Source: a virus
Virus record (IMG/VR): IMGVR_UViG_3300037069_000924
Coordinates: 1 to 32,006 of that record
DNA: 32,006 nt
Strand: one strand, 5' to 3'
The notes beneath the pieces are model-generated. The model made no database searches. It was not told the DNA's origin and saw nothing but the letters and a program-made list of their open reading frames with translations. Each line of letters starts with the position of its first letter. The stretch's first letter is position 1. The position numbers were made by a program, and so were the translations under genes. Below, in pieces: positions 17,696 through 32,006 of the stretch.

Positions 17696-18310
17696 TTATT
17701 CTTGAACCACCATAGCTATTTCTGAGAATAGCAACTTAACATACTTTTTACCACCAAGATAATTGAACTCATAGTTTTTGTCATCTATGGTCAATACGAG
17801 GTCACCAACCTTAATCGGGTGCTCGTCGTGGTGTTTAGGCTTGTTGTGTGGGACGTGCGTAATCCTGACCTTTAGCGCCTCTTTCTTACCACCGCCAATG
17901 ATAATACCGCTTGGACGAACTTCCTCTGGTGTATACAGGGATTCGGCTAAATACAAGCCATCCACCAATTCTATACTTTCATCATCGTTGATTTTAAAGA
18001 AGATGAAGTCGGTAGATATGACCGTACCGTAGTCCATTATCTCAGCCGTTTCATAAGCCATGTAGTGAACGAACAGCCTATCTCCCTCTTTGTAGTTATG
18101 ATTGGCGCTCGGGTGTATCACAGTACAAATCTGAGGCTTTGTTTCAAGGTAATTTAAATTTTCATGATACGTTGTGGTAGCCTCCTCGTCCCCTTCTTTT
18201 GCTACCCACAAATCAGCCCTTACTATTTCTAAGCCATTTAAACCAACTGAAAGTGTTTTGTTGTGTGAGGCATCAAAATCGACAGAAATATTGTTATGAA
18301 GTAAGTTCAT
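17696..18310 (-). CDS. Tandem GroES-like co-chaperonin
   Basis: This 204-residue protein appears to contain two GroES-like units. The second is clearer. GLYLAESLYTPEEVRPSGIII (about 118-138) matches the start and mobile loop of GroES, with GIII in place of the chaperonin-binding GIVL; phage T4 Gp31 also uses III. KVRITHVPHN and then HPIKVGDLVLTIDDKNYEF (164-182) with KKYVKLLFSEIAMVV (188-202) match the GroES barrel and C-terminal strand. The first unit has ICTVIHPSANHNYKEGDRLF (61-80) and YGTVISTDFIFFKIN. A co-chaperonin would work with host GroEL to fold the capsid protein. It is coupled to the glycosyltransferase gene by ATGA and precedes the packaging genes by few bases. Confidence 0.6.
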   Translation of the reverse strand: MNLLHNNISVDFDASHNKTLSVGLNGLEIVRADLWVAKEGDEEATTTYHENLNYLETKPQICTVIHPSANHNYKEGDRLFVHYMAYETAEIMDYGTVISTDFIFFKINDDESIELVDGLYLAESLYTPEEVRPSGIIIGGGKKEALKVRITHVPHNKPKHHDEHPIKVGDLVLTIDDKNYEFNYLGGKKYVKLLFSEIAMVVQE

Positions 18311-19275
18311 GATAGTAGCCTCTCCTTTCTTAGTTCATTTATATTAGAGAGCAATAGGTTGGAGCAGATATAGTCCCATGAAGATTGATTATAACCCTTA
18401 AGGATATCTAAACTTATATCTGTTTCCATAATGTCATTGAGAAACTCAAACTTAACTGAGCCTAAATGTTGAAACTCCACCAACTCATTATTTCCAAAAA
18501 AAGCAGCGCCCACGTATGAGGCTTCAATCATTGCTATATTCGATTTACCTTCATTAAATTTAGTGTTACTTAATGGGTGCATCAATATTTGTGGATTAAG
18601 ATTATGAAGGTATTTAAAATACTGCATAAGGCTCATTTGAGATACTGGCTGGTAATTATCCCCGCACCGTTGCTCCATATAGATAAAACGGCACCCAATA
18701 AACTCAAACATCCAGTCCTTGTTGCCGTTAATAGTGGCTATCAAACTATCTGCCACTTCATACACATCAGCCTCATGGCTGCCGCCGCCACGCCATACTA
18801 CCGTCTTGCCATTGGGGTTAAATGGCTTTTTATCCTTTACGGGGAACAGATAATCATTGTGGCAATTAGGAATGATATGGATATTTGAGTTGTACATGCC
18901 AAATGATTTCTTTACGCCTGCCGTCGATACCCATATCTCATCAGCAGTCATCAGGCAATCCAAAATAATAGCCCTGTTTTGTTGGTAGTGCCCGTACATC
19001 GGGTTATACTGGTCTACATTCAGCACATCATCGTCAAAGTCTATGATAACCCTTAAACCACACTCCTTAGCCAACTTAATCAGCGCAAGGTCATTACCCG
19101 ACGAAGGGCGTTCCAATAGCAGTATATCATAGCCAATAAAGGTTGACCAATCAATCTGTCCCGCCATTGGTTTGTAGGTAACCTCAATATCCTTGGTAAG
19201 GTACTGTAATGGCGTTAAACGATAAAAAGCCGTCGCATCGGACGGCCATTGTGTGATGTATAATAGTTTCTTCAT
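18307..19275 (-). CDS. GT-B-type glycosyltransferase (GT4-like)
   Basis: A 322-residue enzyme that should transfer a sugar from a nucleotide donor. The N-terminus MKKLLYITQWPSDATAFYRL is the first beta strand and loop of a GT-B Rossmann domain. RVIIDFDDDVL (75-85) and ADEIWVSTAGVKKSFG (111-126), then HIIPNCHND (133-141), are typical of phage and bacterial GT4-like proteins. The donor domain has TVVWRGGGSHEAD (158-170) and HPLSNTKFNEGKSNIAMIEA (233-252), with a conserved acidic residue near the sugar-nucleotide site. It overlaps its neighbours by ATGA on both sides, so it is the fourth member of a coupled cassette. The acceptor is unknown. Confidence 0.75.
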   Translation of the reverse strand: MKKLLYITQWPSDATAFYRLTPLQYLTKDIEVTYKPMAGQIDWSTFIGYDILLLERPSSGNDLALIKLAKECGLRVIIDFDDDVLNVDQYNPMYGHYQQNRAIILDCLMTADEIWVSTAGVKKSFGMYNSNIHIIPNCHNDYLFPVKDKKPFNPNGKTVVWRGGGSHEADVYEVADSLIATINGNKDWMFEFIGCRFIYMEQRCGDNYQPVSQMSLMQYFKYLHNLNPQILMHPLSNTKFNEGKSNIAMIEASYVGAAFFGNNELVEFQHLGSVKFEFLNDIMETDISLDILKGYNQSSWDYICSNLLLSNINELRKERLLS

Positions 19276-19979
19276 AATTTCTGAAATACTTTGATGTGGA
19301 CTACGTTAAACAGGAACTTATAATTCTCATTGCCGTTCATATAGGCGTTAACCGCATCGGTGACGGGTTGGATACCCTGGAAGTATCCCCACTCCATGTG
19401 AAGGTCATTGGCACAGTCGTCAACAATCAGGTAGCCGCCTTTCTTAACCATAGTCCCGTAAAAGAATAAATCGCTCTCTATAACATCCTTGGTATGCCCA
19501 CCGTCAATGTAGACCACATCGTATGGCGCTGTTTCTCGTGCTTGTCTGATAATATCCAAATTGGTGCTTAAGCCGTGATATATGATGTAATCTTTAGGGA
19601 TAAAAAAGGTATCATGCAACTTTTCAATATCGGAACGGTAGTCGCTTTCCCAATGTCCATCAGAACTATCGAGCGGGGTTACTCCGTATCTGGCTATTTT
19701 ACGCCCCGTAGCAGACGATAACATCTTAACCAATGATAATATACTCGCTCTAAAAACACCAACCTCTAAGAAGCTAAAATCAGCAGGCATTTCATCAATG
19801 ATTATTTTCCATAGCCAATGAAACGACCGCTCTCCAAAACCGAAGGCGTTGGCTTCAATGAAGTCACGATGAGCCTTTAACCACTCACACTGATTAACGT
19901 TGGTGGTAAAGGCATTGTTAATCGCAGTGTGCCAAGTTGGGTCGTCTTTCCAGTTTATAGTTTCTTCGTGTACTGTCAT
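19272..19979 (-). CDS. SAM-dependent methyltransferase (class I, sugar-type)
   Basis: A 235-residue class I methyltransferase. FSFLEVGVFRASILSLVKML (69-87) is the glycine-containing SAM-binding motif I. ARYGVTPLDSSDGHWES (96-112) follows the second strand. PYDVVYIDGGHTKDVIESDL (152-171) and KKGGYLIVDDCAND (179-192) are the metal/substrate-side motifs of Methyltransf_24-like O-methyltransferases that act on sugars. It lies between glycosyltransferases and is translationally coupled to both by ATGA, so its substrate is probably a sugar added by them; modification of the virion or of the host surface are equally possible. The specific product cannot be read from the sequence. Confidence 0.75.
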   Translation of the reverse strand: MTVHEETINWKDDPTWHTAINNAFTTNVNQCEWLKAHRDFIEANAFGFGERSFHWLWKIIIDEMPADFSFLEVGVFRASILSLVKMLSSATGRKIARYGVTPLDSSDGHWESDYRSDIEKLHDTFFIPKDYIIYHGLSTNLDIIRQARETAPYDVVYIDGGHTKDVIESDLFFYGTMVKKGGYLIVDDCANDLHMEWGYFQGIQPVTDAVNAYMNGNENYKFLFNVVHIKVFQKL

Positions 19980-20623
19980 TTTAGTAATTCTAATACTTTG
20001 GTCATGTCTGTCCTACCGTTCCCGTGTATGAAGATAGGTGTATTCCCCATGATGTGTAAACGTCCGTCTTTATACTCATACTCGCCATCTTCAATAAAAC
20101 TATAGCTGTTAAACACGTTTTGAAACCTGTCTAAATGGATTCCCAAAAACGTGTTTAAATAATTTTTAGTCATCCATAATTGGTCGTCGTCTGAGTGTTT
20201 CGGTGGGAGGGTTTCAAATAACGAAATAAACGTGAGCGAATGGCTATAGTATAACCCGCTATTGATATACTTAAATGGACTTCTTGTTTCTGGGTATTGG
20301 TCTGCCAATTCTTTTTTAGGCCAACAGTTTTTCTCAGCTGAGCAAAGCATCAACTCGCTATATGGAACCTTACTCAAAAACTCTGCCTCATCTGACAATA
20401 CCACAACATCATTAGCATCGCAGAAAATAAAATGCTCTATTTCTGGGTGCTCTTTAAGATACTCGTATGTTTTGATTATTTTGGTTCCAAATCCCTGCCA
20501 AATACAAGGTATCACCTGAAAATCCCATCCGAACATAGTAAGTGAACCGATTAGGTTATGAACTCCCTGATTGGTCGGGTCGCTCGTTACGGTTATCACT
20601 TTTATCTTAGAATCCGCCATCAT
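19976..20623 (-). CDS. PLOD-like (procollagen-type) glycosyltransferase
   Basis: With start MMADSKIKVITVTSD at 20623 the protein has 215 residues; a longer frame to 20734 overlaps the preceding gene by 128 bases and its extra N-terminus is not homologous-looking. Motifs match the glycosyltransferase domain of lysyl hydroxylase (PLOD) and related proteins. They are HFIFCDANDVVVLS (64-77) with the metal-binding Asp pair, LMLCSAEKNCWP (91-102), KYINSGLYYS (118-127), SDDDQLW (144-150) and TPIFIHGNG (195-203). Known relatives add galactose or glucose to hydroxylysine or to glycan chains. This phage version lacks any hydroxylase domain. The start overlaps the previous stop by 17 bases. Confidence 0.75.
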   Translation of the reverse strand: MMADSKIKVITVTSDPTNQGVHNLIGSLTMFGWDFQVIPCIWQGFGTKIIKTYEYLKEHPEIEHFIFCDANDVVVLSDEAEFLSKVPYSELMLCSAEKNCWPKKELADQYPETRSPFKYINSGLYYSHSLTFISLFETLPPKHSDDDQLWMTKNYLNTFLGIHLDRFQNVFNSYSFIEDGEYEYKDGRLHIMGNTPIFIHGNGRTDMTKVLELLK

Positions 20624-21359
20624 AGTAGTAGTTAAGTTTACCCGACTGGTATGACTCGCATAATTGTGTGATAGTCCCAATGTATTTACCAGCTTCGTCC
20701 TGCTTCCATTTGGTATAGGTTGTGCCGCCATCATCCAAGTGCGTTATTTTGATATGTGGTAAAAAAGCATTTTTAAACCCTGCGGCTAACGACCTCGCCG
20801 AGAACAAAACATCGTCTCCGCCATAGTAATCACTCGGCTGGTTCATGTAACCTACTTTATCAAGCATCAATGGGTTGAACGCTGTGCAGGTGCCGATAAT
20901 GTCATCACATATCTCCAAATTGCCCTCCATGTGGGTACGGTAAGCGGGGTTCTCGTGGCTTGGGTTCTGCCACACATCGGAGCGTTTAAGTCCGCAAATA
21001 CCAATATCGGGTCGGTCTGTAAATACCTGTTCCAATTCTTCTACCCAACCTGATTGGTGCCACGTGATATCGTTATCCGACTTAAAACAAACCTCTCCTT
21101 CTTTTCTTTGGGATAGCGCCAAGTTAATCCCACGAGCAGTCCCGATGTTTTCTTTAAGGGTTATAAGGGTAGTATTGTATGTGCTTTTCCTAAAGCCAGA
21201 TAGAATTTTTTTTGTGGCTACGCAAGAATCATTGTCAATTAAAAATACCCGATGTTTTTGTAAATCTACCGTATCATACAGTGATAAAAGCATCTCCTGA
21301 GAATACTTTGTTCTGCCGTTTTCTTCTGTATCGAAAAAAGTGATTGCTATTAATCCCAT
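20607..21359 (-). CDS. GT2-like glycosyltransferase (GT-A fold)
   Basis: A 250-residue family-2-like enzyme. The nucleotide-binding strand (RVFLIDNDSC, about 37-46) is followed by LKENIGTARGINLALSQ (68-84), a common GT2 motif. SDNDITW (94-100) is the DxD-type metal-binding site, and GGDDVLFSARSLAAGFKNAF (180-199) includes the acidic catalytic-base region. HIKITHLDDGG near the end supplies a late His/Asp. A Cys/Thr pair at FNPLML gives the usual acceptor-loop position. It is the first large gene of the sugar-modification cassette and is preceded by a TTG-N20-TATGTTTG promoter-like site. The sugar and acceptor cannot be told. Confidence 0.78.
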   Translation of the reverse strand: MGLIAITFFDTEENGRTKYSQEMLLSLYDTVDLQKHRVFLIDNDSCVATKKILSGFRKSTYNTTLITLKENIGTARGINLALSQRKEGEVCFKSDNDITWHQSGWVEELEQVFTDRPDIGICGLKRSDVWQNPSHENPAYRTHMEGNLEICDDIIGTCTAFNPLMLDKVGYMNQPSDYYGGDDVLFSARSLAAGFKNAFLPHIKITHLDDGGTTYTKWKQDEAGKYIGTITQLCESYQSGKLNYYYDGGF

Positions 21360-23158: not shown

Positions 23159-24088
23159 TTAAAAGGCGCATACGCCACAGCTTTGTTTTTGGTAGTTGGT
23201 TTCTTGCTCTGTTCTGCCAAAGTCCATGTGGAATTGGATATCTTCAATGGTTTTAGTTCCCTTAGTTTCTTTTATTAATCTGCCCCAATGCGCTTTCAGT
23301 CTTGCTGATAATGAAACAGATTTCATCCAGTAGTTGTAATAAAAAAACTCAATAGCCAAATAATCATCTTCTTGAAAGTTTTTACAGGGCAGACAATTAT
23401 TGTGACTAAATACTCTCTCTCTCTTTCCTAATTTCTTTTTTATGGATGCTTGACTTTCTTTACTTACCCTATGAAGGTTTTCTACCATAAACTTTATGAA
23501 TTTTTTGTTGTTCCATCGCAAATCATATATTGGCGGATACCAGCCGATTGCTTTCTTTACTATTGTAAAACACCATTCATTGGTCTTATCCGAAATCGGG
23601 AAAAGCTTTTTAACATCCCCTATTTGAACCGACCTACCCTCAACATCATTGTCTGTTTTTTCTGACATGTTTTTAACTCGCCTAATCTCCTCTCTAACAT
23701 AACCAACCAAGTCGGTAGTTATGCCGTTTTCTTTCATATACTCATGCATAGGTATAACCTTTAATATTCTCGTACATGGAGCAATAGCGGGATGTGGTAT
23801 CATCTTTTCTTTCTCAAAAAAGCGGAGCACGCTATTGCGAGTAATCTTAACAACAACCATTGGAAACTTTTCTCGTGCAAATTTTATGAGCGCCTTTACA
23901 AAGGCAAAACTTTCTGGACTATGTTCCTCGAAATGGGCATAATACAAATGAAGTACCTTTGGATAGTATTCTTTAGGCCATAGCGATAGCCAAACCAAAA
24001 CTGCGGCGCTATTTATTCCTGCAGATATACCCACCATGATTTCTTCTTCTGAAAAATCCTCCTGTTGTATAAACATTTCTTGTTGCAT
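23159..24088 (-). CDS. PAPS-reductase-like PP-loop protein
   Basis: A 309-residue protein of the adenine-nucleotide alpha-hydrolase type. The PP-loop is EIMVGISAGINSAAVLVWL (16-34), in which SAGINS replaces SGGxDS. After an HLYYAHFEEHSPES segment (47-60) comes APCTRILK (103-110), the site of the conserved Cys105 seen in phage PAPS reductases. Two further pairs, NNCLPCKNF (231-239) and SCGVCAF at the very C-terminus (303-309), could bind zinc or an Fe-S cluster. Relatives reduce PAPS, adenylate sulfur donors for tRNA or DNA thiolation, or act in DNA phosphorothioation. The context (replication genes) favours nucleic-acid modification, but this is inference. Confidence 0.72.
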   Translation of the reverse strand: MQQEMFIQQEDFSEEEIMVGISAGINSAAVLVWLSLWPKEYYPKVLHLYYAHFEEHSPESFAFVKALIKFAREKFPMVVVKITRNSVLRFFEKEKMIPHPAIAPCTRILKVIPMHEYMKENGITTDLVGYVREEIRRVKNMSEKTDNDVEGRSVQIGDVKKLFPISDKTNEWCFTIVKKAIGWYPPIYDLRWNNKKFIKFMVENLHRVSKESQASIKKKLGKRERVFSHNNCLPCKNFQEDDYLAIEFFYYNYWMKSVSLSARLKAHWGRLIKETKGTKTIEDIQFHMDFGRTEQETNYQKQSCGVCAF

Positions 24089-24604: not shown

Positions 24605-26428
24605 TTAAAAAGGTGCTTCTTCTGTTGATTCGGTCGGACTATATTCAACTTCTTTTTTTGGCTCTGAATGGTTAATAGCAACAGGTGCAGAGTAATTTAT
24701 TATTTTTTGCTCCCCTCTTGGCAATATCCAGTTTGAATTATCCAAATCCTCGTCAACATTACAGAACCTGCTGTTAACATGGTTATACCTTACGTTACAT
24801 TGCCCTTGTTTTCCAAGGTGGGCATACTTCATCTTCTGAACATGTATCTGGCTTAATTTAGTTTCATAGTTTCGGTAAAAGGTAATGCCAATATCTGGTT
24901 TATTAAACCAGTTACTTGACCCTGATATATCGTAAAGGTTTGGCACCTCGAACTGTCCCCCCTTGTCTTTTCTAATCTTTGTCGGGTGAGCAATAACTAT
25001 TGTAAAAACCCCATGGCGCTGGTCAAATTTTATAATTTTATCAAGTTGTTTTGAAATATACATGGTTTCATTATCGCCCCTATCCATGTTATGTTCTAAC
25101 TTATTCCACGGGTCGATAAGTAAACCTTTTATACCATACTTCACTACAAGGGTCTTACTCTTTAAGATAATATTATCAAGAGTTGTATCATCATCTTCGG
25201 GCTGAATAAAATAAAAATGTTCATTTATAAAAGCCTTTGCCAACTCTCTCTCTCGTGCTGAAAAAGTAGTCCCCTTTCTAACATACCTACCAAGTAAACA
25301 TTCGCAAATCATAACTATAAATATCGGCAATGGCTTATGCTCAGGAGTAAATAACCCCCATTTGTACCCATGCTTAATTGATAGTGCGCACATAATCATA
25401 AGGGCAAAAGGGGATTTACCATGGTTAGGTATTCCAGTCAAAACCATTAAGTGCCCCGGTGTAAATGACACTAACTCATCAAAATCCTTTAGAACACCAG
25501 TAGTATCACCCTTAGGTAGCCCGTTGTCCATATAGTTTTCTACCTCATCCCATATTGAATCAACTGTTATAATACCACTAAGCGGAAAGTCAACAAGATT
25601 TTTAGGCTTTATAAGGTCTATAAGCGATTGTTTTCCTTTAGCAACTAACATTTCGTTCCCGTCTTTAAACGAGCCATAATCGACCTTATAACACCGTTCA
25701 TAACCAAGTCTACGGGCTAACTCATCCCTTAGTGACAAACCTGGTCCATCATTGTCAGTAGCAATTATAATTTTCTTTTTGTTATCAAAGTAACTTATGC
25801 AGTTGTCGAGATATTCAAGGTTACCATTACCTTTACTTGCGCCATTAGGAACGCTTATAACCTCGTTGATACCAGCCTCAATAAAAGATAGACAATCTAT
25901 CTCACCCTCCACAATAACACACCAATCAGATTCTTCAATGGCATCAAGATTGTAAAATATTAATTCGGCATCCTTTACCAACCTGAATTTTTTATCGGCA
26001 GTACGGTACTTTATGTTTATCAGTTCATTTTTTCTGAAATAATTAAACTGTACCGTATTTTCCTTTTCTTCTCCACCAAAAAACACCAACCCCTCAGAGA
26101 GTTTTGTATCTGTAAGAACTTTTTGAGATATTCCTCTTTTAAAAAAATACTTAACAACTTTGTCAGATAGTTGGGTATTGTTGATATAAACTGGCTTTAC
26201 GTAAACTTTGGTTCTCGGAACAAAGTTTGTCTTGTTTCTTACCTGACCATGAAACCCACAGTCATTATGGCAATTGTAAACGCCAGTATCCAAATCTATA
26301 CTTAAGCATTTGTCTTTTTTGTTTTTCCTTTCAGAACTGCACTTTGGGCATAAAACCTTATCGCTACCTGTGTTTCTTGTAGTTACAGCGCCAATGTCAG
26401 CGAATAATTCTTTAATCGTTTTTTCCAT
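24605..26428 (-). CDS. Bifunctional DNA primase-helicase (T7 gp4-like)
   Basis: This 607-residue protein makes primers and unwinds DNA at the phage fork. Its N-terminal zinc-binding domain has Cys27/Cys30 (VLCPKC) and Cys53/Cys57 with His60 (YNCHNDCGFH). A TOPRIM domain follows with VIVEGEIDCLS (171-181) and IIATDNDGPG (221-230), whose Glu and Asp pair bind metal. The RecA/DnaB-type helicase has Walker A TGIPNHGKSP (331-340), Walker B GLLIDPW (435-441) and the sensor-like IAHPTK (479-484). The C-terminus ends STEEAPF, with an acidic residue pair and a terminal Phe, like SSB-type tails. It follows the initiator-like gene by one base. No DNA polymerase is in the window, so it probably works with a host polymerase. 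Confidence 0.85.
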   Translation of the reverse strand: MEKTIKELFADIGAVTTRNTGSDKVLCPKCSSERKNKKDKCLSIDLDTGVYNCHNDCGFHGQVRNKTNFVPRTKVYVKPVYINNTQLSDKVVKYFFKRGISQKVLTDTKLSEGLVFFGGEEKENTVQFNYFRKNELINIKYRTADKKFRLVKDAELIFYNLDAIEESDWCVIVEGEIDCLSFIEAGINEVISVPNGASKGNGNLEYLDNCISYFDNKKKIIIATDNDGPGLSLRDELARRLGYERCYKVDYGSFKDGNEMLVAKGKQSLIDLIKPKNLVDFPLSGIITVDSIWDEVENYMDNGLPKGDTTGVLKDFDELVSFTPGHLMVLTGIPNHGKSPFALMIMCALSIKHGYKWGLFTPEHKPLPIFIVMICECLLGRYVRKGTTFSARERELAKAFINEHFYFIQPEDDDTTLDNIILKSKTLVVKYGIKGLLIDPWNKLEHNMDRGDNETMYISKQLDKIIKFDQRHGVFTIVIAHPTKIRKDKGGQFEVPNLYDISGSSNWFNKPDIGITFYRNYETKLSQIHVQKMKYAHLGKQGQCNVRYNHVNSRFCNVDEDLDNSNWILPRGEQKIINYSAPVAINHSEPKKEVEYSPTESTEEAPF

Positions 26429-26429
26429 T

Positions 26430-27098
26430 TTAATGAACTGCTTTAAGTCCTATTACTTTATTGTTTTTTTTAGCCTCGTTTAAATAACTCTCAAATTTAT
26501 TCCCGAATAATGTTTCTGGACGAAGATATTGGCTCATAGCGGCATCGTTTAACCATTTCTCTGATTTTATATCAATAACCTTTTTAAAATCTTCTAAACC
26601 ATATCCCTCGTTAATCCTCGCCTCAATAAATTTCTTTGTAGAAATGGTAGTTTTTTTAAAACTGGACGACACTATTTGATTTAAATAATCAACAGTATTA
26701 CCAATTACATTTTCATTTTCAATTAGGTTATTTTTAGGTTTGCCTACCGATAACCTATCGGTTTCTGTTAGGTTATTAACCTTAACTACTTGTGTTTTAG
26801 GTGGTCTACCACCATTTTTACCATTAATCTGGCGACTTTCTACGAATTTAGTCCGCTTTTGCACTTCTAAATCAAGGCGCTCATTATAAAATAATCCATT
26901 TTCATCGACCTTAAATTTTGCTTTTAATATTTCAGAAAATGGGCCGATTAGCATTGTCGCGGTTTGCTCTGTTATATGACCGTTCTGATGCATGAAACAA
27001 AGTAATGTTATATATCTTCCACGGTCATCAAAAGGCATTGCCATGGTGCCTACCAGAAAGTCTTGGCTATAAAAAAGGAACGCAGGGTCTTTAGACAT
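26430..27098 (-). CDS. Replication-initiator-like protein (phage O/DnaD type)
   Basis: A 222-residue protein. The N-terminal part (DPAFLFYSQDFLVGTMAMPF, then RGRYITLLCFMHQNGHITE, about 27-45) resembles the DUF1376/replication-O winged-helix N-terminus. A linker with NGKNGGRPPK (92-101) follows. The C-terminus (FIEARINEGYGLEDFKKVID, about 157-176; LRPETLFGNKFESYLNEA, about 191-208) matches the conserved C-terminal domain of phage replication proteins, where the last motif ends in FxxYL. Such proteins bind the origin and load the helicase, and the primase-helicase gene follows directly. Confidence 0.72.
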   Translation of the reverse strand: MSKDPAFLFYSQDFLVGTMAMPFDDRGRYITLLCFMHQNGHITEQTATMLIGPFSEILKAKFKVDENGLFYNERLDLEVQKRTKFVESRQINGKNGGRPPKTQVVKVNNLTETDRLSVGKPKNNLIENENVIGNTVDYLNQIVSSSFKKTTISTKKFIEARINEGYGLEDFKKVIDIKSEKWLNDAAMSQYLRPETLFGNKFESYLNEAKKNNKVIGLKAVH

Positions 27099-30668: not shown

Positions 30669-30875
30669 TTATTTATTCTGTTTTTTATTTGAAGCGTCAG
30701 CCATAACCCACTCTCCACGTTTAGCGTATTCAAAGTCCATTTGATTTAAAAATTGAACCTTAAAAGTTTTTACACCGATTCTCAACCACATTAATCTTTT
30801 TAAAGCGTTAATAGACACAACCTCGCATTGATACTCCTTACCGTTTTTTAATATGTGCCAAAATCTAATTTTCAT
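30669..30875 (-). CDS. Small basic hypothetical protein, 68 residues
   Basis: A 68-residue protein, MKIRFWHILKNGKEYQCEVV, rich in Lys, Trp and Met. Strands at the start (RFWHIL, EYQCEVVSI) and a later KTFKVQFL suggest a small beta barrel or sheet. Its start overlaps the stop of the RepL-like gene by ATGA and it is therefore coupled to it. It might be a cofactor of the initiator, but no family is recognised. Confidence 0.55.
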   Translation of the reverse strand: MKIRFWHILKNGKEYQCEVVSINALKRLMWLRIGVKTFKVQFLNQMDFEYAKRGEWVMADASNKKQNK

Positions 30876-31366
30876 TTTTTATTGGGTTCGTCCCAGCGTA
30901 TTTTACTTTTAAACTTATTAATTCTACTTCCTTTAAAAAAGAAATGGGGGTTAATCCACAGCAAATCTGTAATGATGCCGTGTTTGGATACATAACCACC
31001 GATAGCAAGGTGACCTATGGCGTCTTTAAACGTGTTGATAGCCGTTATCTTCATCACCTCCATATACTTTACCCTATCAATCCAAATCCAATCCTTGCCA
31101 GCCTTGATATTGTGTAGGATGTGTAAATACAACTCCTTACTTCTTATCGGTAGCAGGTCAACAGGCATTGCATCCTCGGGTAGTTTCGCATCGTATAACT
31201 TCGTAAAGGGCGTTTTCTCTAACTGCGTTTCCAGAACGTCCTCAGCCCCATAAAGATTAACGACCTTCTTATGCTTCTTATTTATCCAAACCTCCAATGT
31301 TTGCTCAAAAGGGTTAAGCCCCAGTTTTTCTTCGTCTATAACAGGTATTACTCGTTTTCTTCCCAT
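30872..31366 (-). CDS. RepL-like winged-helix replication/regulatory protein
   Basis: A 164-residue protein and the first gene of the early operon. Residues 75-148 resemble the winged helix of plasmid RepL-type initiators: SKELYLHILHNIKAGKDWIW (76-95), VMKITAINTFKDAIGHLAIG (104-123), then the wing YVSKHGIITDLLWIN and the hallmark WINPHFFFKGSR (137-148). RepL proteins start plasmid replication by binding at an origin. An alternative is an autorepressor. The promoter in front contains palindromes to which it may bind. It starts at the first ATG, five bases after TATCTTTG, and is coupled by ATGA to the next gene. Confidence 0.65.
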   Translation of the reverse strand: MGRKRVIPVIDEEKLGLNPFEQTLEVWINKKHKKVVNLYGAEDVLETQLEKTPFTKLYDAKLPEDAMPVDLLPIRSKELYLHILHNIKAGKDWIWIDRVKYMEVMKITAINTFKDAIGHLAIGGYVSKHGIITDLLWINPHFFFKGSRINKFKSKIRWDEPNKK

Positions 31367-31371
31367 TGAAA

Positions 31372-31401
31372 CAAAGATAGTAATTAATTCTATACTGTCA
31401 A
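31372..31401 (-). promoter_or_regulatory. Early promoter of the leftward operon
   Basis: On the minus strand TTG (31401-31399), 19 bases, then TATCTTTG (31379-31372) and, five bases on, the ATG of the RepL-like gene. This is a full Bacteroidetes -33/-7 match. The -33 element lies inside a palindrome, so a protein bound there would block RNA polymerase. Confidence 0.7.
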
Positions 31402-31411
31402 TACATTGACG
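31395..31411. promoter_or_regulatory. Palindromic site 1 (operator or iteron)
   Basis: CTGTCAATACATTGACG: the arms GTCAAT and ATTGAC form a perfect 6-bp inverted repeat with a two-base spacer (31397-31410). It overlaps the -33 element of the early promoter. Confidence 0.6.
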
Positions 31412-31489
31412 CTAATTTATTATTTAATAATTATTGACATTCTAAATTATAATCGTTATCATGACGTGAGTAGACAAAAACAGCACTTT

Positions 31490-31506
31490 CTGTCAATACA
31501 TTGACG
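31490..31506. promoter_or_regulatory. Palindromic site 2, identical to site 1
   Basis: The same 17 bases, CTGTCAATACATTGACG, occur 95 bases to the right of site 1, about nine helical turns away, so both copies may face the same side of the DNA. Confidence 0.6.
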
Positions 31507-31522
31507 ATATGGCATCTATCGT

Positions 31523-31536
31523 GTCAATACAGTGAT
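31523..31536. promoter_or_regulatory. Degenerate palindromic site 3
   Basis: GTCAATACAGTGAT differs from GTCAATACATTGAC at two positions and lies 31 bases (about three turns) from site 2. A further half site, ATTGAC, is at 31433-31438. Confidence 0.45.
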
Positions 31537-32006
31537 TCGAGAAACCTACTCATTAACCTGTAATACAGACCGTTACGACATAATTAATTTTGACAGTATA
31601 TATACACATCGCAAATAACCTAACACACTCACGTGTACAGGTCAACAATGCACGGGTCACAGGGTATCTCAGAACCCCTTTTTAACCCCTCCCCTTCAAC
31701 CCAATAATTTCCAACAATAAAAATACTATCCCCACTATTACACCCCTTATACACTACCAAAAACAAACCATTTCTTACCAAAACAAGTTCAAACAACCCC
31801 TCAACCAGTTTAAAACAACTACAATTCATACAGCAAAATCCAAAATTTTATTTTTTTTCTCACTCTCGCTTAGGTGGGATTATCCCCCACCAATCACCAC
31901 CCCACCAAGTCGAAAGAGAACGCAACCTGTAGACCGGGGTGGCCTCGACTCGTCGTTTATCAAATCTTGTCAAGACCTAAAAACTAATTTTCATCACCAC
32001 TAATTA
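31537..32006. other. Gene-free region with G-depleted tract and structured end
   Basis: About 470 bases without a convincing gene. From 31673 to 31867 the plus strand has only three G in 195 bases, and none at all at 31673-31786. From 31873 it becomes GC-richer and can fold: GGTGGG (31873-31878) with CCCACC (31886-31891), and an H-type pseudoknot layout further right. An origin, a packaging site or a structured RNA are possible. Confidence 0.6.
31897..31950 (+). other. Possible H-type RNA pseudoknot
   Basis: CCACCCC (31897-31903) can pair with GGGGTGG (31936-31942), and AGTCGA (31908-31913) with TCGACT (31945-31950). The four arms alternate (1-2-1'-2'), which is the layout of an H-type pseudoknot. 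The complement can form the same pairs. No coding frame explains it. Confidence 0.4.

Follow-up and report, generated by a model that had tools for sequence, protein, structure and literature searches.

Introduction

The closest described counterparts of the locus reported here are replicons with initiators of the RepL type. In plasmid pMOS6 of Paracoccus marcusii, Rep alone suffices for replication, and repeats are located upstream of rep (PMC3832669). In the lytic replicon of phage P1, the origin oriL was postulated to lie inside repL, and an AT-rich tract is needed for replication (PMC9948254). Carjivirus communis, a crAss-like phage with RepL, was proposed to be a phage-plasmid (PMC11652158, PMC7551546). 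In this report, we compare with these systems a group of palindromes in front of a RepL-like gene in the window, that is, the whole stretch of 32,006 nucleotides of viral DNA analysed. The window is a fragment and ends 640 bases upstream of the RepL-like gene, which bounds the searches for a repressor and for lifestyle genes described below.

Results

Palindromes and promoter upstream of the RepL-like gene

The gene, its promoter and the repeats in front of it are as follows.

30872–31366, minus strand: 164-aa RepL-like winged-helix protein (P0001; AlphaFold model, hhalign), gene heading the leftward early operon
31372–31379, minus strand: -7 element TATCTTTG (Bacteroidota TAnnTTTG), read from the sequence, 5 bases before the ATG
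31399–31401, minus strand: TTG of the -33 element, contained in the proximal palindrome; a spacer of 19 bases separates ATTG from the -7 element
31395–31411, unstranded: proximal palindrome, 14-bp core 31397–31410, centre 37 bp before the ATG, position kept in seven relatives
31433–31439, plus strand: half site ATTGACA, part of the AT-rich tract
31490–31506, unstranded: second palindrome, an identical 17-base copy, core 31492–31505
31523–31536, unstranded: third, degenerate palindrome, one mismatch to RTCAATNNATTGAY, 31 bp from the second
31590–31600, plus strand: distal half site TTGACAGTATA, in a block shared with the relative L003 (alignment)

Upstream of the leftward early operon, the 14-bp palindrome core RTCAATNNATTGAY was present three times, twice within identical 17-base copies and once as a near copy. 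The exact copies of CTGTCAATACATTGACG were at 31395–31411 and 31490–31506; no further copy with three or fewer mismatches was present in the 32 kb (0.06 expected by chance), and the RTCAATNNATTGAY pattern gave a single other weak match in the window outside the cluster. The two identical copies, the degenerate third and the half site of the preliminary description were all recovered. Spacing by whole helical turns, which had been claimed for all of them, applied to the full palindromes, whose centres were 95 bp (approximately 9.0 turns) and 31 bp (approximately 3.0 turns) apart, but not to the half site ATTGACA, which was 28 bp off (2.7 turns). The distal TTGACAGTATA at 31590–31600 was the exact 11-nt inverse of TATACTGTCAA at 31391–31401. 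A block, TATATACTGTCAAAATTAATTATG, was near-identical in the window (31578–31602, minus strand) and in L003 (4826–4850) amid otherwise diverged noncoding DNA, and TATATACTGGCAAAATT, which is similar to it, was found upstream of the RepL-like gene in L007.

Promoters of Bacteroidota have the consensus TTG, about 19–21 bases and TAnnTTTG. On the minus strand, a promoter consisting of ATTG (31402–31399), 19 bases and TATCTTTG (31379–31372) could be read in front of the ATG at 31366, and the TTG of its -33 element fell inside the proximal palindrome, as the preliminary description had placed it. TAnnTTTG was located 11–13 bp before the ATG in most relatives and was absent in L011.

Conservation of the sites among relatives

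Searches of viral contigs, with either the protein or alignments as the query, revealed 17 viral loci that encode relatives. Two more, on a Bacteroidetes MAG contig and in Spirosoma oryzae, came from a single scan of contigs of bacterial genomes, and tblastn detected none in cultured phage records. A site with 0–2 mismatches was centred 36–40 bp before the start codon in the window and in L003, L005, L006, L009, L012, L015 and L016 (counted from the second ATG in L016), and one or two extra copies were present upstream of this proximal site in all eight. The proteins of the seven relatives showed 36–82% identity with P0001. In L011, the site was 23 bp before the start codon, and scanning with RTCAATNNATTGAY revealed no clear sites upstream of the gene in L017 and L018. 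Whereas the distance to the proximal site varied (25, 34, 80, 90 and 95 bp), the spacing of the upstream pair, 31–32 bp, recurred in five phages, namely the window, L003, L006 (32 bp), L015 and L016.

With up to one mismatch allowed, 19 sites were counted in nine 180-bp regions (the window, the seven relatives and L011), and 16 remained when the window was left out; in 500 shuffles that preserved dinucleotides, the mean was 0.09 and the largest count was 2. Owing to the common ancestry of the phages, these counts are not independent events. The region is AT-rich, which would favour an origin of the repeats by chance or from low complexity, but exact duplicates are not expected randomly, and the shuffle counts together with a site position conserved across phages with proteins of 36–82% identity already refute this explanation, which we regard as having practically no chance of being correct. 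In the records of nine relatives, matches away from the gene were isolated and about as frequent as those of a reversed-pattern control, and no comparable palindrome cluster was found elsewhere in the genomes searched. A search for the exact 17-mer across all viral contigs gave an isolated match in the unrelated contig L008, apparently inside a coding region, which was discarded.

Diverged relatives carried different palindromes, as would be expected if the encoded protein were the reader. In L010, the protein of which shows 33% identity, a different palindrome, TGCAGTGTGTTGCA, had its centre at -36 and was repeated 67 bp upstream, at -103, and L007 had still other palindromes, ATGCAATTTTGCAT. 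The predicted recognition helix differed as well, being VHTFLNA in L010 as against INTFKDA. At the sequence level, the joint change of site and recognition helix in L010 is suggestive of reading of the site by the encoded protein, and we consider the RepL-like protein to be the likely binder of the palindromes.

Alternatively, the sites might be operators of another regulator, either a phage repressor beyond the right end of the window or a host factor. A regulator encoded to the right would be unseen, and HTH_3 genes were present in three of the ten records searched; however, none of these was an HTH_3 repressor common to the group, the sites were confined to the RepL-like gene, and the half-site sequence changed with the diverged RepL-like proteins while its position was held in L010, unlike what a conserved host factor would leave. 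Such a regulator seems improbable. The autoregulatory switch suggested in the preliminary description and the predicted binding by the RepL-like protein are well supported by sites that are conserved across diverged relatives and stand only before the RepL-like gene. Repression of its own promoter by the RepL-like protein is the outcome that we favour, with some reserve.

Relationship of the protein to RepL

The AlphaFold model, built from 17 aligned sequences, had a mean pLDDT of 83 and a winged helix at about residues 74–138; a first structure model was too poor for use. When 12 phage proteins were compared with six plasmid RepL-type proteins by hhalign, the probability was 99% over 134 columns (the E-value refers to one comparison), and the NPF and INP-FFKG-R motifs were both aligned. 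Residues 13–150 were covered by the homology to the RepL proteins of small plasmids, among them pMOS6. The RepL-like winged helix noticed in the preliminary description accordingly holds as homology by profile-profile comparison, but Pfam RepL (PF05732) gave the window protein no score and reached distant relatives only, L022 (in G015) passing the cut-off and L007 falling just below it. If a broader RepL-like superfamily is defined by alignability over the protein and by shared motifs, the phage family belongs to it. A second, separate weak match to PF05732 was noted in the record of L010, in a 265-aa frame (G004:C1:31628–31750, minus strand).

In a Foldseek search of viral models, proteins of crAss-like phages were the best matches, one of them annotated as a RepL domain; crAss001 had no PF05732 match. 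Fold searches of the PDB returned common winged helices only, including RepE54 at Z 5, and were not decisive, and a sequence search of solved structures gave nothing meaningful. Kinship with phage phi38:1 was considered and dropped, as the portal relation was distant and PF05732 found no RepL in that phage.

Origin-type features of the intergenic region

In addition to the palindromes, the region contains the following features, and two further replication genes lie downstream.

31413–31453, unstranded: AT-rich tract (92.5% A+T), candidate unwinding element, between the proximal and second palindromes
31932–31941, minus strand: second conserved element, part 1, CACCCCGGTC, preceding part 2 by 54–56 bp in six phages
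31876–31888, minus strand: second conserved element, part 2, GGGGGATAATCCC, after CACCCCGGTC
26430–27098, minus strand: DnaD/O-like replication protein (phrog_428, E 7.5e-38; Pfam Phg_2220_C), same leftward series
24605–26428, minus strand: primase-helicase (phrog_239, E 3.1e-79), same leftward gene series

The tract adjoined by the three palindromes was the most AT-rich 40-bp segment of the whole record. Relatives also had AT-rich tracts upstream of the gene, but these were not exceptional or unique in every relative, and both palindrome spacing and tract varied among them. The two-part element, approximately 0.5 kb upstream, showed small variations across six phages, with 44 bp between its parts in L012; the window, G002 and G005 (R at one position in G005) each contained a single copy of the exact form. 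As a structured RNA it gave no Rfam match and folded no better than shuffles. The cumulative GC-skew minimum was in or beside the intergenic region in G002, G004, G005 and G006 and 4.4 kb away in G001; when the intergenic region was masked, it stayed at the edge in G002 and G006 and moved 2.5 kb in G005. Divergent transcription would explain these minima equally well. In the window, no DnaA box was found in the 640 bases upstream of the gene; single ones were found in L010 and L017.

As in a RepL-type replicon, the promoter region in front of the rep gene contained repeats in the window. In the RepL plasmids L047, L048, L049 and L052, repL was immediately preceded by direct and inverted repeats that were specific to the subfamily, and two of the RepL plasmids compared were only 1.6 and 2.3 kb. 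The AT-rich tract, the nearby skew minimum in several relatives and the RepL-plasmid layout are consistent with an origin. Palindromes over a promoter are typical of simple operators, and iterons as a rule are direct repeats with little space between them; the 95-bp gap between the palindromes is wide and speaks against an origin. We regard origin function of the region as evenly balanced.

The RepL-like protein might instead be solely an autorepressor of the early operon, with the origin elsewhere and served by the DnaD/O-like protein and the primase-helicase. A palindromic site that covers the -33 element and keeps a fixed distance in eight phages would suit this explanation, as would the presence of that separate initiator and primase-helicase and the occurrence of repressor DNA-binding domains (LexA, BlaI and CodY) among the winged-helix matches. 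On the other hand, homologues are the sole initiators of small plasmids (PMC3832669), and the AT-rich tract, the upstream pair and the second conserved element exceed the needs of simple repression. We also considered whether the DnaD/O-like gene contains the origin, in the manner of lambda O, but no repeat or iteron array was seen there. We consider a purely regulatory role rather doubtful.

Neighbouring genes and lifestyle

No integrase above the cut-off was found in ten records, with one weak match in G005, nor was a ParA-type partition ATPase (PF13614) found in these records. Episomal replication, which the preliminary description had thought fitting, therefore gained no support beyond RepL kinship: PF13614 was missing, no HTH_3 gene was shared and nine of the ten records had no integrase match. 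These results, for a window that is a fragment, lend no support to stable lysogeny or to maintenance as a plasmid. Exact end repeats were absent in G001, G004 and G005, and none was confirmed in G002 and G006.

Other minus-strand genes of the window matched phage families of PAPS reductase (23159–24088), 2OG-Fe(II) oxygenase (19976–20734), DNA methyltransferase (19272–19979) and glycosyltransferase (18307–19275), which are possible metabolic or host-takeover genes. A 204-aa protein (17696–18310, minus strand) had a weak C-terminal match to the GroES co-chaperonin family (E 5.2e-5).

Discussion

In the explanation that we prefer, and to which we give about an even chance as a whole, the RepL-like protein binds the palindromes, represses its own promoter and probably also has its origin in this region. 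The protein would bind the palindromes, probably as a dimer, and binding at the proximal site would cover the -33 element and block the promoter, so that the protein would hold down production of itself and of the replication proteins encoded behind it. The origin would most likely be made up of the two upstream palindromes, which are 31 bp apart and lie on one face of the helix, the AT-rich tract and the upstream conserved element, and the same protein would start replication there, as in RepL plasmids. A stronger version, that phages of about 72–77 kb carry a complete RepL-type replicon at a divergent early promoter region, use it as their origin and can thereby enter a plasmid-like state, is unlikely; its parts would be the autoregulated initiator, the palindromic binding sites, the unwinding tract and the second conserved element. 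An autoregulated Rep gene is ordinary in principle, and in the literature searched we did not find this version described for these uncultured phages. If the preferred explanation is right, it gives a group of uncultured Bacteroidota phages a short origin and switch that can be tested, and the palindrome could be used for detecting and comparing origins in related contigs. It would also tie the group to RepL plasmids and to the debate on plasmid-like lifestyles of crAss-like phages.

With the RepL plasmids pMOS6, pMTY1887_Col, pPS1M3 and pRGI01450, the phages share initiator homology, NPF near the N terminus, the winged helix, the closing motif INP-x-FFxG-x-R and subfamily-specific repeats in the promoter region. 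They differ in that the phage gene heads a replication series that includes a primase-helicase and a DnaD/O-like protein of the phage, that 14-bp palindromes spaced by 31 and 95 bp take the place of tandem iterons, and that the window protein is below Pfam RepL detection. The crAss-like phages are likewise Bacteroidota phages with RepL-domain proteins and provided the best viral structure matches of the model, whereas tblastn gave no sequence match to cultured phage records, and the parallel in plasmid lifestyle is putative here. P1 resembles the window in its AT-rich tract and in the name of its phage initiator, RepL; its oriL is postulated within the repL gene, whereas the palindromes of the window lie upstream of the gene.
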